A program made the translations under genes and the position numbers. 64,000 nucleotides of DNA from an uncultured Pelagibacteraceae bacterium. Lineage in GTDB: Bacteria; Pseudomonadota; Alphaproteobacteria; Pelagibacterales; Pelagibacteraceae. The notes under the pieces were generated by a model that saw only the letters and a list, made by a program, of their open reading frames with translations, was not told the origin of the DNA and searched no databases. Shown piece by piece: positions 2,074-8,077 of the stretch. The stretch covers positions 62,001 to 126,000 of the forward strand of contig CABZRS010000001.1 in NCBI GenBank assembly GCA_902528135.1. The letters run 5' to 3'. Position 1 is the first letter of the stretch, and every line of letters starts with the position of its first letter.

Positions 2074-2090
2074 ATTATATTTAAATTACC

Positions 2091-2180
2091 ACTTGCTAAA
2101 TTTTTAAAAAGTTACTACTTCCAATATTTATAGAATAGACAGGCATAGCTCAGTGGTAAAGTGTCTCGTTTTCAACGAGG
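2091..2180 (+). repeat. Direct repeat copy 1 (tRNA-Gly upstream region plus decayed tRNA 5' half)
   Basis: 79/90 positions identical by eye to 3591-3680, no indels, offset exactly 1500 bp. Confidence 0.8.
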
Positions 2181-2200
2181 TAGTCCACGTTCCTTTGCAA
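2139..2200 (+). pseudogene. Decayed tRNA-Gly copy (anticodon loop TTTTCAA instead of TTGCCAA)
   Basis: acaggcatagctcagtggtaaagtgtctcgttttcaacgagg matches the 5' half of the tRNA at 3639. D-stem is mismatched and the T-arm/acceptor 3' half is not recognisable. Confidence 0.75.
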
Positions 2201-2202
2201 TA

Positions 2203-3522
2203 CTAATCAATAACTTTTCTTAATTCAGATTGATTTGCGATTTTTTGATTTAAAAATGTTTTACTAATTTCATTATCATAAATAAGTTTATAACTAGAAT
2301 CCCCAATTATTTTTGCATAATTAATCCAATTTTTTATAACTAAAACATCAGAAAGATTAACTTTTCCTGTTGTTTTACTATATTTTTTTATATCTCTATT
2401 TTCTCGTTTTGGAATTTTATTATCAAAGATATTTTCAATCTTTGACCAATTCTTTTTATATTTCATTTCTTGTTCTTTGTTAAAATTAATTTTTTTATAA
2501 TCTGGGTATTTCTCATAATATTCTGAACAACCATGTTTCAATTCGATCTTTTTTTTAAAAATTCCTATTTTTTTTATTTCATTTTCTAAAATTTGCTTAA
2601 TTTTTTGTGCTTCCAAAGAGCTATTACAATATATGTATCCCTTATAATTACCTTGAATTTTTGACCTTATTTCCACCATACATTTTCTTACATTATTATT
2701 TTCTAAATAAATTTCATTAAATAGAAAAGAAAGTTTAATCAGGTCTATTACGTTATACATTATTACTTGAACTTTGTAGCAGTCAAAACAAAATTTTGGA
2801 ATAATTTCATGCTCTTCAAAAATTTTTAAATGTCTTTTGCAATTTAAATTTTTAGCATTTTTTTTTACAATCTGGGTATCCAAATGAAATAGGTCATTTT
2901 CTTTATTGAGAATTTTATCAACTCTGTCTAAAAATTTTTTAATATTAGTTTGCTCATAGATTTGATTACTTTTAAATTTATGAGCTAATTTTATAATTTC
3001 CTCATTTGTTTTTAAAATATTATTATTTAAATTATTTTGTGGAGTTATAAAATTTAGTACACTAATCAAGTATATTTTACATCTAATGTTACTAGGATTT
3101 AATTTAAGATTTTTTACGAAATTTTCAATAGCAGACTCAAACATACCAATTTCATTGTAAGAAATTGCTAAATTTTCATACGCTAATCCATAATATTCAT
3201 TTTCTTTAATTGCTTTTTTATAAAAAATAATTGACTCGTTTATTTTCCCCATTTGAAATTTAGCTACTCCCATATTACATAAAATTTCATATTTTAATTC
3301 CAATTTTGGTAATAATTTAAAACAAGTATCTAAATATAACTTCCACTCTTTTTTTTTAAAATAAATTAAGGAATATATTTTAAGGTTTTGAATTTGATTA
3401 ACATTTCCCTTTTTTACTTTTCCCAACAATTCTAATGCCTTATTTAATTTGTTATCTTTATAATTTTGTATAATTTTACTTAGTTCAATATCATTCATAA
3501 TAAGTAAACTATAAAGTATCAT
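2203..3522 (-). CDS. TPR-repeat protein with uncharacterised Cys-containing C-terminal domain
   Basis: N-terminal TPRs; C-terminal region with PKFCFDCYKVQV, GYIYCNSSLEA, LKHGCSEYYEKYPDYK. Start could be the internal Met of MNDIELSK. Confidence 0.65.
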   Translation of the reverse strand: MILYSLLIMNDIELSKIIQNYKDNKLNKALELLGKVKKGNVNQIQNLKIYSLIYFKKKEWKLYLDTCFKLLPKLELKYEILCNMGVAKFQMGKINESIIFYKKAIKENEYYGLAYENLAISYNEIGMFESAIENFVKNLKLNPSNIRCKIYLISVLNFITPQNNLNNNILKTNEEIIKLAHKFKSNQIYEQTNIKKFLDRVDKILNKENDLFHLDTQIVKKNAKNLNCKRHLKIFEEHEIIPKFCFDCYKVQVIMYNVIDLIKLSFLFNEIYLENNNVRKCMVEIRSKIQGNYKGYIYCNSSLEAQKIKQILENEIKKIGIFKKKIELKHGCSEYYEKYPDYKKINFNKEQEMKYKKNWSKIENIFDNKIPKRENRDIKKYSKTTGKVNLSDVLVIKNWINYAKIIGDSSYKLIYDNEISKTFLNQKIANQSELRKVID

Positions 3523-3590
3523 AAAATTAATAAAACTAAACTTGCACTGGGATTATTATGACTGAAATGTTAACTATAATTCTTTTTGCT

Positions 3591-3680
3591 ACTTGCTAAA
3601 TTTTTAAAAAGCTAATACTTTCAATACTTATAGAATAGGCGGGCATAGCTCAGTGGTAGAGCGTCTCGTTGCCAACGAGA
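3591..3680 (+). repeat. Direct repeat copy 2 (tRNA-Gly upstream region plus tRNA 5' half)
   Basis: See 2091-2180. Confidence 0.8.
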
Positions 3681-3713
3681 AGGTCGTGGGTTCGAGTCCC
3701 ATTGCCCGCTCCA
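3639..3713 (+). tRNA. tRNA-Gly(GCC), CCA encoded
   Basis: Acceptor GCGGGCA/TGCCCGC, anticodon stem-loop TCTCG-TTGCCAA-CGAGA, T-loop GGTTCGAGTCC, 3' TCCA. Confidence 0.95.
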
Positions 3714-3727
3714 TTTGTATTCATATT

Positions 3728-4573
3728 ATGATTATTTGGATTGCTTCATATCCTAAAAGTGGAAATACCTATATAAGGTCATTCATTGCCTCTTATTACT
3801 TTTCAAAAAAAGGAAAATTCAATTTTGATTTACTTTTAAATATTCTTCAATTTCCCTCTATCAAATTTTCAAAAAAGAATATTCACTCTGAAAAAGATGC
3901 AAGTGATCATTGGATTTATAATCAAAATGAATTTTTCTCTGGAGATAAAATAAATTTTTTAAAAACACATAATTCACTTGAACCGTTCAATGGTAATCAA
4001 TTTACATCCAGCAATCAAACTTTAGGAGCAATCTATATTGTTAGAGATCCTAGAAACTTAATTACCTCTTTAATGCATCACTATTCTTTAAATTATGATG
4101 AAGCCTACTCTAAGCTTACAAACAAAGATGCTTCTCTTTTAGAAAAATCTCAAGATAATGATCATAGTAATTTCACTTTCCTAGGGTCATGGTCAAATCA
4201 CTTCTCTTCTTGGAAAAATTCGAAAGATTTTAAAACGTTATTTATTAAATATGAGGACTTAGAAGATAACAAATATGATACATTTAAGAAAATTTTAAAA
4301 TTTATTAATGAATTGAAAAAAGATGAATCTTCTATTAATGAAAAAAAATTTCTAAATTCTATTAATTCTACAAATTTTTCTAACTTAAAGAACAAAGAAG
4401 AAAATGAAGGATTTGAGGAAAGTGTGTATTCAAAATCAGGACAAAAAAAACGATTTTTTAATTTAGGTTTCAACAATAGATGGCAAAAAATTTTACCAAA
4501 AAATATATTAAAAAAGTTAAATAAATCTTTTCAAAATGAGATAAATGATTTAGGATATGAAATCTATGACTGA
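3728..4573 (+). CDS. Sulfotransferase domain protein
   Basis: MIIWIASYPKSGNTYIRSFIASYY (PAPS loop) and IYIVRDPRNLITS. ORF-track start at 3653 lies inside the tRNA, so the start is moved to ATG 3728. Confidence 0.85.
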   Translation: MIIWIASYPKSGNTYIRSFIASYYFSKKGKFNFDLLLNILQFPSIKFSKKNIHSEKDASDHWIYNQNEFFSGDKINFLKTHNSLEPFNGNQFTSSNQTLGAIYIVRDPRNLITSLMHHYSLNYDEAYSKLTNKDASLLEKSQDNDHSNFTFLGSWSNHFSSWKNSKDFKTLFIKYEDLEDNKYDTFKKILKFINELKKDESSINEKKFLNSINSTNFSNLKNKEENEGFEESVYSKSGQKKRFFNLGFNNRWQKILPKNILKKLNKSFQNEINDLGYEIYD

Positions 4574-4904
4574 TTTAGCAGAGAAAAAATGTATACCTTG
4601 CGAAGGTGGAATTCCAAGTTTTAATCTTGAAGAAATTCACAAATATCTCAAAAAAGTTGATGGTTGGAATGTGGAAAGCATGGATAAAAAAGATTATTAT
4701 ATCACTAAAGACTTTAAATTTAATAATTTTTTAGAAAGTCAGTCTTTTGTAAATAAAGTTGGAGAAATTGCTGAGCAAGAGGGCCACCATCCTGACATAT
4801 GGTTTGGTTGGGGATATGCAAAAATTAAAATACAAACGCATGCTATTAATGGGCTGCATGAAAGTGATTTTGTTCTTGCTGCAAAAATTGATAAAATTAA
4901 CTGA
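4557..4904 (+). CDS. phhB: 4a-hydroxytetrahydrobiopterin dehydratase
   Basis: GWNV...ITKDFKFNNFLESQSFVNKVGEIAEQEGHHPDIWFGWGYAKIKIQTHAINGLHESDFVLAAKID. Confidence 0.9.
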   Translation: MKSMTDLAEKKCIPCEGGIPSFNLEEIHKYLKKVDGWNVESMDKKDYYITKDFKFNNFLESQSFVNKVGEIAEQEGHHPDIWFGWGYAKIKIQTHAINGLHESDFVLAAKIDKIN

Positions 4905-4907
4905 ATC

Positions 4908-6452
4908 TTAATGTTTAAAATGTCTGGTTTTTGAAAAAACCAAGATCACGCCTAGTTTATCGGCAAATTTAATAATTTCTTTGTCACGAATAGATCCTGA
5001 AGGTTGTATTATTGCGCTTACTCCATTTTGAACTAAAGTTTCAATTCCATCTATAAAAGGGAAAAATGCATCTGATGCCCCTATGATTAGGTCGTTTTCG
5101 TTAATTTTTTGGAATTTATTCATTTTGTCTATTGCTATTTTGCAACTATCTAATCTACTTGGTTGACCTGATCCAATTCCAATTGTCGAATTATTTCTAG
5201 TCAAAACAATTGCATTAGATTTTACATTTCTACATACGTTGAAAGCAAATAACAGCTCATCAAAAACTTTTTTTGATGGTTTTATCTTAGACACAATTTT
5301 AAAATTATTTTTTTTAAAAACATAATTATCAGCACTTTGAATTAAATAAGAGTCAAAGTAACTATTTATATTTGTTGAGTTTTGTGCTCTTAATTTAGAT
5401 GCATCAATTAATCTTAAATTTTTCTTTTTTTTTAGAATTTTTAGTGATTCCTGATCAAAACCAATCCCAATAATTACCTCTAAAAATATTTTGTTTAATT
5501 CAAGAGCTATTTTTTTAGTTACTTTAAAATTACATAAAACAATTCCTCCAAATGCACTAATAGGATCGCATGCTAGAGCTTCTTTATAACTCATAATTTT
5601 GTTATTATTAACTGACACACCACATGGATTAGCATGTTTTATAATTACAGTTCCTGTATTTTTTGGAAGTGTTTTTGAAATATTTATAGCTGCGTATATA
5701 TCATTATAATTATTATAACTTAATTTTTTTCCACTCAATTTGGATATGTCTAAATTATCTTTTTTGCTATAAATAGCTGATGTTTGATGAGGGTTTTCAC
5801 CATATCGTAATATTTCAACCAAATTTCCATGAAATATTTTTCTTTGAGGAAAATAATCTTTATTTTCAATATTTAAATATTCTGAAATTATAGTGTCATA
5901 GTATGCCGTTAAATTGAATGCTTCTTGAGATAGTTTTTTTCTGAACTCTAAACTTGTGTTTCCTTTGTTCTTTTCTAAATTTAAAATAAATTCTTTATAT
6001 TGATTAGGAGAAGTTAGAACAGTTGTATATTTATAATTTTTAGCTGCTGCTCTCACAAGACTTGGACCCCCAATATCTATATTTTCAATTAGTTTATTTC
6101 GATTTTTTGTATTTTTTAACGTGTCTTCAAATGGATAAAAATTAACTATAACTAAATCTATTTCGTCAAAATTATTCTTTTCAAGCTCTTGTTTATGTTT
6201 TTTGTTTTCTCTCATGCTTAAAATACCAGCATATATCTTTGGATGAAGTGTTTTTACTCTTCCATCCAAAATCTCATCATTATTTGTATATTTTGATACT
6301 TCAGTACATTTAAAGCCTAATTTCTTAATTTCTTTAAATGTACCCCCTGAGCTAATTATATTAACCTTATATTTTTTAAGAGTATTTAAAATTAAGTCAA
6401 TTTCTGATTTATCCGAAAGAGATATAATTGCTTTTTTTATTTTTTTAATCAT
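4908..6452 (-). CDS. purH: Bifunctional AICAR formyltransferase/IMP cyclohydrolase
   Basis: AIISLSDKSEIDLILNTLKKY, SSGGTFKEIK, DGRVKTLHPKIYAGIL, LRYGENPHQTSAIY, IKHANPCGVS, GSGQPSRLDSCKIA. Confidence 0.97.
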   Translation of the reverse strand: MIKKIKKAIISLSDKSEIDLILNTLKKYKVNIISSGGTFKEIKKLGFKCTEVSKYTNNDEILDGRVKTLHPKIYAGILSMRENKKHKQELEKNNFDEIDLVIVNFYPFEDTLKNTKNRNKLIENIDIGGPSLVRAAAKNYKYTTVLTSPNQYKEFILNLEKNKGNTSLEFRKKLSQEAFNLTAYYDTIISEYLNIENKDYFPQRKIFHGNLVEILRYGENPHQTSAIYSKKDNLDISKLSGKKLSYNNYNDIYAAINISKTLPKNTGTVIIKHANPCGVSVNNNKIMSYKEALACDPISAFGGIVLCNFKVTKKIALELNKIFLEVIIGIGFDQESLKILKKKKNLRLIDASKLRAQNSTNINSYFDSYLIQSADNYVFKKNNFKIVSKIKPSKKVFDELLFAFNVCRNVKSNAIVLTRNNSTIGIGSGQPSRLDSCKIAIDKMNKFQKINENDLIIGASDAFFPFIDGIETLVQNGVSAIIQPSGSIRDKEIIKFADKLGVILVFSKTRHFKH

Positions 6453-8077
6453 ATTTTACTGATTTGCCATTCAATTAACTGTTCATTATTTTGAGTAATG
6501 CCCGAGATAAAAATATTTTGGTTTTCTATATAACTATTTTTATTACCGAAATATAATCCAGTTTCAACCCCTATCAATCCATCATTAGAATAGAATCTCC
6601 ATCCAGAATTATCCAACTCGATTAAAACAGATTTATTGTCTTGAAGTTTCGTTACTTTAATATTTGGTAAAAGATGAAACCTTATTTCAAAGTTTATAGT
6701 TTTAAAATTCTTTTTTTTAATAAGGTTTTCTTTTCCAAAAAGTATATTTTTAACAGAATCAAATTCTAATTTTCTTTGATGAATTATTCCATATCTTGAT
6801 AAATATCCATCATGAGAACATTTAATACTCCAATAATTTTTCTTATAAATTACTTTATTATCAAATGTTTTGAATCCTTTGCTAATTAAATTCAGACCTC
6901 TACCATTTTTTTTGAAATTACATGCAGAGGAGCTATCTAAAATTAATGTAGAGTGAGTTGCTGTTGTTTTAGATATTGAATTAAGTTGATGGTTATGATC
7001 TTGAAAATAACCAGAATTTGTAATTAGTTTTTTGTCTTTAAAAAAAAATTCAAATGACAAAGGTCCGCTTTGATAATTTTCAGAATAATTTTTTGATGGA
7101 TTGTTTCCTGTATCCATTGCAAGAATTGCATTTTTATTTTTTAAGATTGTATACCCAGAAACTTCGAATTGATCACTCATAAATTTATATCTAAAAAGAG
7201 ATAGGTATTTATCAAAGTCTTTATTATTTGAATTATTATTTCCGTTAAACAATAAACTCTGCCCTATTGATCCCCAAATAAAATTATAGGATTTACCAAG
7301 AAAATGAATTATTTCATCTAAGTATTCTGGAATATCATTTAAAGAATCTTTTAAAAGCTCTCTGATCAAAATAAAATATTTTAAATAAAAAACCATCTGT
7401 CTTATATTTCTTGATTTTGGAAAGTAGTTATTATCAAAAGAACTATTAATAATTTTTTTAAGCAAATCTAATCCATACTTCAAAAACTTGTTATTTTTGT
7501 ATGCTATGCCAGCAAGGGTTATTGCCGTACAACCGATCATTTTATCGTTTAAATCAGAAGATCTGTTTATTTCATTTATTAGATGATTTATTTGCTTACT
7601 GATTATTTCGTTGAAAATATTTTTATAGTTGTTTCCAGATTTATCATAGGTTATTTTTGAATTTGAAATCCAAGCTATTACTCTTTTAGAAAGAATGTCT
7701 ATTTCCCAACTCTTAGCTTCATAATTTTGATTTTTTTTAATCCAATTCTCAACAATTGACTGAGTAACTTCATTAGAAGATTTAAGATCTATTGAAAATA
7801 GCCAGTAAAAACTATGAAGTTTTTTAAAATTATTGTAACTTAAATTTTTATTTTCCCATATAGATTGAATTTTAAAATCCTCAATTTTAATTTTTGTTTT
7901 ATCGTATTTTATTAATGAGCTAAGTATATTAAGGTTTGGTTGATAAGCTAAAACATTCTCATCAACTTTTGAAATTTTTCTATTATAAATAGATGAATTA
8001 AGATAAATTTTTCGTATTTGGATTTTAAAAATATAATAAAATTCATTGATATAATTAAAAGAACTTTTTAAAAACAT
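6449..8077 (-). CDS. Heparinase II/III-like family protein
   Basis: WIKKNQNYEAKSWEIDILSKRVIAWISN, AMDTGNNPSKNYSENYQSGPLSFEFFFKDKKLITNSGYFQDHNHQLNSISKTTATHSTLILDSSSAC. Confidence 0.8.
   Translation of the reverse strand: MFLKSSFNYINEFYYIFKIQIRKIYLNSSIYNRKISKVDENVLAYQPNLNILSSLIKYDKTKIKIEDFKIQSIWENKNLSYNNFKKLHSFYWLFSIDLKSSNEVTQSIVENWIKKNQNYEAKSWEIDILSKRVIAWISNSKITYDKSGNNYKNIFNEIISKQINHLINEINRSSDLNDKMIGCTAITLAGIAYKNNKFLKYGLDLLKKIINSSFDNNYFPKSRNIRQMVFYLKYFILIRELLKDSLNDIPEYLDEIIHFLGKSYNFIWGSIGQSLLFNGNNNSNNKDFDKYLSLFRYKFMSDQFEVSGYTILKNKNAILAMDTGNNPSKNYSENYQSGPLSFEFFFKDKKLITNSGYFQDHNHQLNSISKTTATHSTLILDSSSACNFKKNGRGLNLISKGFKTFDNKVIYKKNYWSIKCSHDGYLSRYGIIHQRKLEFDSVKNILFGKENLIKKKNFKTINFEIRFHLLPNIKVTKLQDNKSVLIELDNSGWRFYSNDGLIGVETGLYFGNKNSYIENQNIFISGITQNNEQLIEWQISKI

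Follow-up and report, generated by a model that had tools for sequence, protein, structure and literature searches.

The window, that is, the whole 64,000-nucleotide stretch of DNA that was analysed, is part of a SAR11 (Pelagibacterales) assembly that is 79% complete. Near its start, two genes on the plus strand, a TPR-sulfotransferase gene (430–2073) and a sulfotransferase gene (3728–4573), enclose a decayed 5' half of tRNA-Gly (2139–2179, plus strand), a gene for a 439-residue TPR protein on the minus strand (2203–3522) and an intact tRNA-Gly(GCC) gene (3639–3713, plus strand). The start codon of the sulfotransferase gene was read from the sequence at 3728, in place of the 3653 given in the list of open reading frames, which lies inside the tRNA. 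The initial annotation had already placed an opposite-strand TPR gene between sulfotransferase genes; our reading agrees with it, and the TPR reading frame is intact. Both tRNA copies belong to a longer repeat: positions 2091–2180 and 3591–3680 agree at 79 of 90 positions with no indels and an offset of exactly 1500 bp, values that were reproduced on recomputation, and at full extent the repeat covers 2086–2179 and 3586–3679 (82/94, 87%). The 79/90 match is far beyond chance, since no other 90-base segment of the window, on either strand, agrees with the intact copy at more than 46/90 positions (mean 24.5, s.d. 4.1). Its identity drops sharply at the edges, to 9/35 past 2180 and 15/40 ahead of 2086.

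The intact gene scores 75.3 bits with Rfam. The relic breaks off just past the 3' arm of its anticodon stem; its anticodon loop reads TTTTCAA, as originally noted. A covariance check on the relic, also proposed in the initial annotation, returned 22.8 bits, under the gathering cut-off of 29; six of its 41 tRNA bases are changed, every one of them to A or T, and the changes extend to the acceptor and D-stem. Rfam matches near the locus to HPnc0260, SAM-II and Plastid-ycf2 were weak, under their own gathering scores, and were rejected. A scan for the sigma-70 consensus returned 19 sites against 13.0 (s.d. 3.3) in shuffled sequences and placed none ahead of either tRNA-Gly copy. No second close match to the tRNA-Gly of the window was found in its own genome (79% complete).

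Comparison with related loci identifies the interval between the two copies as an insert. With this insert removed, the flanks of the window align contiguously to L033 over 62–2973 of 2975 bases (71.5%) and to L036 over 326–2966 (71.6%); the TPR-sulfotransferase and sulfotransferase flanks are contiguous in these two genomes, and strains with an empty site, whose presence the initial annotation had regarded as informative, therefore exist in SAR11. A third genome, L112, has flanks 86% identical to those of the window and carries a different insert, a beta-propeller cassette, in the same slot. The sequence at 2086–2138 (plus strand), ahead of the relic, belongs to the repeat and corresponds in place and type to the upstream region in L112 and in the empty-site genomes, which marks it as the original host upstream (promoter) region of tRNA-Gly, now stranded. 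Directly after the relic, at 2180–2211 (plus strand), the 32 bp GTAGTCCACGTTCCTTTGCAATACTAATCAAT are identical at 31 of 33 aligned positions, with one gap, to the left end of an integrase-bearing element in L124. The locus thus has an intact tRNA at one end, a tRNA fragment at the other and empty sites in relatives, which is the pattern of integration at a tRNA gene. A profile of attL sequences, with the window copy among those from which it was built, matches the relic with E=4.6e-17 (60.5 bits). The relic is almost certainly the attL scar of an integrated element.

The same junction recurs across SAR11. In five genomes of the genus, the window included, the 5' half of tRNA-Gly breaks at the same point and unrelated genes follow; the four besides the window, found among the genus genomes searched, likewise show an additional 5' fragment ahead of an intact tRNA-Gly. 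The shared break reads ...CAACGAG/GTAGTCC... (the slash marks the break), with decay visible in the older copies, and the sequence that follows is alike between genomes despite the unrelated genes beyond. In L148, the shared segment reaches further, into the T-stem. Of the 397 genomes scanned in the order, 14 contain the junction pattern; a backward control gave 0. Scanning one genome per species returned 31 records, 29 of which are Pelagibacteraceae or Pelagibacterales; the remaining two, L118 and L143, come from unrelated taxa, have no tRNA half and were set aside as chance matches. An intact tRNA-Gly lies downstream in 23 of these 29 records; for the remaining six, the DNA fetched does not reach that far.

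Several of these elements carry a tyrosine integrase. The exact junction was found in one viral contig, L085, from the viral collection IMG/VR, in which a terminal redundancy of 123 bp defines a 5875-bp unit. Its attP consists of the tRNA-Gly 5' half and GTAGTCC, directly before the tyrosine integrase gene, and the contig additionally encodes a terminase small subunit and an AAA ATPase; the combination of an integrase, a replication gene and a packaging-related gene in a small genome from a viral sample is that of a phage satellite. A complete integrated element of 6067 bp occupies the site in L108 (genome G293), where the relic is followed by the integrase, small open reading frames, a DUF5906 primase and the intact tRNA. 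In L124, L134 and L146, the integrase likewise comes straight after the relic, so that integrase and matching attP occur together in L085, L108, L124, L134 and L146, but not in the window insert. Because the L085 attP holds the 5' half and the L108 element lies whole between relic and tRNA, it is the element that brings the tRNA 5' half and upstream region. Since the tRNA half in the L085 attP is the promoter-proximal one, the upstream region and 5' half of the host remain at the integrase end, which is attL. A search of INPHARED phages gave only unrelated tRNA-Gly matches.

The equivalent place holds a tRNA-Val 5' half in two related satellites, L100 and L101, and at an integrase fragment in L154. 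When 20 integrases, taken from viral contigs as well as from SAR11 genomes, were placed in a tree, eight with 5'-half sites (six Gly, two Val) formed one clade with support of 99/98, the nearest neighbours of which use tRNAs in the opposite orientation. Two more distant 5'-half integrases fall elsewhere in the tree. In L157 and L158, from other genera of the family, distant integrases stand behind tRNA 5' halves that by eye are of tRNA-Ser and tRNA-Met. Owing to the distance of the latter integrases, the 5'-half mode may have had more than one origin.

We propose, with a probability of about 0.82, that the relic is the attL of a small element of phage-satellite type that targets SAR11 tRNA-Gly(GCC), and that the cassettes found at the site derive from such elements. 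The tyrosine integrase of the 5'-half satellites is the presumed catalyst: it would recombine the element attP, made of the tRNA-Gly 5' half and upstream region directly ahead of the integrase gene, with the tRNA gene, the exchange taking place at the anticodon stem-loop or close to it. Insertion would strand the host promoter and 5' half at the left, where both decay, and would join the upstream region and 5' half of the element to the host 3' half, giving an intact tRNA behind the incoming promoter region. In the window, comparison of right ends and the repeat would make 3586–3638 (plus strand) this incoming region, with a predicted promoter from which tRNA-Gly would be expressed, and the gene at 3639–3713 would be attR, its 5' part coming from the element and its 3' part from the host. 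Helper phages may package the satellites. Many members appear to have lost the integrase and satellite genes and to persist as cargo cassettes between attL and attR, probably mobilised in trans, their ends being recognised by the integrases of satellites. An excised circular cassette would be expected to read upstream region, tRNA 5' half and GTAGTCCTTGG, with no host flank. The initial annotation had called duplication of a promoter and 5' half atypical for integration at a tRNA, and an attP composed of a tRNA 5' half and upstream region accounts for this. It had left the choice between segmental duplication and a different insertion mechanism; the second is borne out as site-specific integration, whereas the first does not hold, as an element end and not host DNA follows the break.

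Most inserts at the tRNA-Gly site lack an integrase. The cargo of the 29 records is a choice-of-anchor-I beta-propeller protein in 20, PhnD–PhnC–PhnE with a UbiE-like methyltransferase in two, an integrase in three, a DUF4268 protein in one and other or short open reading frames in three. Other inserts carry an FkbM methyltransferase (L068), a 626-residue HATPase-domain protein (L109) and, in L048, a protein without a Pfam match, the scan having been done on its relative in L038. The DUF4268 protein of the L114/L133 cassette (AG-913-I14) matches the PADLOC candidate-defence family PDC-S11 at 1.3e-122; PADLOC gave no match for the TPR, HATPase and L113 proteins. The beta-propeller, phn, DUF4268 and HATPase cassettes have no integrase and keep both attL and attR, a CIME-like condition. 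Unrelated cargos share common ends that include arm-like repeats, TCGACACACTCACGACACACTTCGACACA at the left and TCGACACACTCACGACACAG at the right, the right one beginning 94 bp ahead of the tRNA; L068 has a different repeat of its own at the −94 position. Repeats of this kind are what the arm-binding domain of an integrase would recognise, and those of the cassettes are probably bound in this way. In L051, an arm-like repeat with 4/20 mismatches to the L068 type stands at about −94, after a sulfotransferase gene that lies upstream of the tRNA; no relic is visible, and this is perhaps an older cassette.

One cassette shows spread as an exact unit. The 1.65-kb beta-propeller cassette is 99.7–99.9% identical in L057, L105, L106, L110, L111 and L112, while purH of these six carriers is 68–86% identical and the adjoining host DNA cannot be aligned. 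Followed along the locus, identity rises from 0.37–0.45 in the host DNA to the left to 1.00 across the relic, is 0.99 through the body and 1.00 over the last 100 bp before the tRNA, still reaches 0.96 in tRNA positions 43–75 and falls to 0.37 just downstream. Near-identity therefore ends at the edges of the unit, and the cassette moves as that unit. Insertions also stack: L134 reads decayed relic, FkbM gene, fresh relic and then integrase. In L130 and L135, a beta-propeller body is joined to an L124-type left end, which argues that cassette ends can be exchanged; in L136, an L124-type left end is joined to another short insert. In L195 and L197 (around base 1502, reversed), an arm repeat after the beta-propeller gene is joined to an integrase gene at its ribosome-binding site and start codon, and tRNA-Gly was not found in the fetched stretch; this fusion suggests that cassettes may form by recombination between arm repeats. 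Searches of IMG/VR by junction or arm pattern found no one-gene cassette and no circular form, which counts against the cassette model.

A phosphonate operon occupies the same position. In L129, which is AG-899-N21, phnCDEubiE lies at 3205–7207, exactly between attL and attR, and the end repeats of the phn cassette are the same as those of beta-propeller cassettes (L129, L120, L107). This genome served in published work as evidence that phnCDEubiE passed recently between HIMB59 and Pelagibacterales, and adjacent tRNA genes and tyrosine recombinases were noted for the transferred operon (PMC12416821). From its position and ends, the cassette is likely the vehicle of this published transfer of a phosphonate-uptake operon (PMC12416821).

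For the window insert, attL is present, but arm repeats are missing at both sides, the best candidate for a right arm having been rejected at 10/20 mismatches, and no integrase was found in the window or in its incomplete genome; both absences count against the proposed assignment. The insertion is evidently old, given the missing arm repeats and a relic in which six of 41 bases have turned to A or T; judged by its junction and left end, the window copy belongs to the element family as an old member that lacks an integrase. The TPR gene, whose final codons and stop codon fall within the element end, likely arrived as cargo of the attL element. Against this, TPR relatives with 42–45% identity precede tRNA-Gly in other genomes where no relic can be seen. 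No TPR cargo was found in IMG/VR, and a single-sequence structure model of the protein gave a mean pLDDT of 34.8. Relatives of the window TPR protein also lie near tRNA-Met(CAT) or tRNA-Arg(TCT) in L169, L170, L179, L184, L186 and L191, with no duplicated tRNA fragment found in the fetched DNA. In about 50 genomes of the genus, sulfotransferase, TPR-sulfotransferase and FkbM genes vary on both sides of tRNA-Gly, and no relic was seen on its downstream side.

These relatives bear on a composite history, in which the attL scar of an L124-type satellite is genuine and the body was later exchanged for a donor TPR gene together with its native promoter and tRNA-Gly, so that the TPR gene was never cargo. 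Several genomes have such a gene upstream of tRNA-Gly with neither relic nor arms, and the intact copy of the window lacks a right arm and stands behind a promoter region of host type, as this history would predict. It is nevertheless unlikely: two events are required where one suffices, host-type promoter regions are also combined with arms in the cassettes of L114 and L145, cargo is also fused to shortened left ends in L136 and L114, and the near relatives L033 and L112 have no TPR gene at the locus. A cargo TPR gene remains the preferred reading. It is improbable that the cassettes spread without a site-specific recombinase, by DNA uptake and homologous recombination inside the tRNA. The tRNA is indeed the sole boundary homology (42 bp at the left, 75 bp at the right), and an integrase of the 5'-half family was not seen in most carrier genomes, many of which are incomplete single-cell or metagenome assemblies; but elements with an integrase have the identical junction, unrelated cargos have arm-like repeats at fixed distances in common, and one boundary recurs with different cargos.

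Two further explanations concern the relic itself. A functional role for the relic, as a small RNA whose 5' half resembles that of a tRNA, could draw on the preserved upstream region and anticodon stem, yet it is very improbable for a sequence with six A/T changes reaching into the acceptor and D-stem, and with a weak fold, slightly better than shuffles (z = −1.6); moreover, the relics of L068 and L048 have decayed at different positions. Expression of a 3'-less tRNA-like transcript, which the initial annotation had thought conceivable, is likewise disfavoured by the changes and the fold. Segmental duplication, or loss of a tandem tRNA gene followed by decay, would explain why both copies have 52 bp upstream of the tRNA in common. 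We regard it as refuted, since L033 and L036 have contiguous empty sites, related loci have one intact tRNA each and the sharp break is followed by element sequence; a second intact tRNA, which the initial annotation had named as the sign of tandem gene loss, was looked for, and all 50 of the 50 related loci with a gene found by ARAGORN have one intact tRNA-Gly. Integration by a satellite-type element thus remains the reading that we adopt.

In pTN3-type elements, the attachment site lies inside the integrase gene. Archaeal pTN3-like integrases use a tRNA 5'-half site, a mode described as seldom met in bacteria, and restore the tRNA behind the element promoter; a split integrase has been described for these elements (PMC8371274). 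The SAR11 elements are alike in that L085 (Gly), L100 and L101 (Val) carry the promoter-proximal tRNA half, with a predicted promoter role, but they differ in their bacterial host and in that their attP lies ahead of an integrase gene which is intact after integration in L108; membership of the pTN3 family is excluded because of the location of its site. The cassettes resemble CIMEs and the accretion of ICEs and IMEs (PMC5704250) in the loss of integration genes with attL and attR kept, and in newcomers inserting beside an older element; in contrast, the SAR11 units have no conjugation genes, have satellite-like parents, are one-gene units and restore the tRNA from the 5' side. The marine satellites VEIMEs, tycheposons and PICMIs (PMC11389934, PMC10803314, PMC10872708) are likewise small and tRNA-associated or satellite elements with a tyrosine recombinase and a primase. 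The DUF5906 primase also occurs in the PICMI model, and L085 has a terminase small subunit. Full SAR11 elements, however, measure about 6 kb and have an attP of the 5'-half type, and most occupants of the site are integrase-less cargo cassettes. The tycheposon has been described as having a tRNA at its border, a tyrosine recombinase and a size of 4–200 kb (PMC10872708); set against this description, full SAR11 elements of about 6 kb have the tRNA and recombinase, whereas the cassettes are smaller and recombinase-less. Like MITEs and CALINs (PMC11389934), the cassettes are non-autonomous, have standard ends and probably depend on the recombinase of another element, but they use a single tRNA-gene site through attP and attB rather than transposition or attC recombination. 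Integrase-less one-gene cassettes that have standard ends, spread as exact units and supply the promoter region of a tRNA were not met as a combination in the literature compared, with the original VEIME and tycheposon papers and Williams 2002 lying outside that comparison.

The integrases described here form a bacterial clade with the rare 5'-half mode, in which the element putatively takes over the promoter region of a tRNA; in the window, this concerns a tRNA-Gly with no second close match in a genome that is 79% complete. SAR11 bacteria are streamlined, and the route by which they gain adaptive genes is an open question, for which a vector with defined ends is now offered. Because attL and attR bound the cargo exactly, one short pattern is enough to list it in any genome or metagenome of SAR11. 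On balance, we lean towards a general picture in which recombinase-less, one-gene cassettes of SAR11, whose standard ends consist of the tRNA-Gly 5' half, the upstream region and arm repeats, are excised and inserted in trans by satellite integrases, stack at a single tRNA gene, swap the promoter region of the tRNA with each insertion and deliver genes across species. If this is true, one-gene cassettes would bring nutrient, surface and defence genes across SAR11 species.
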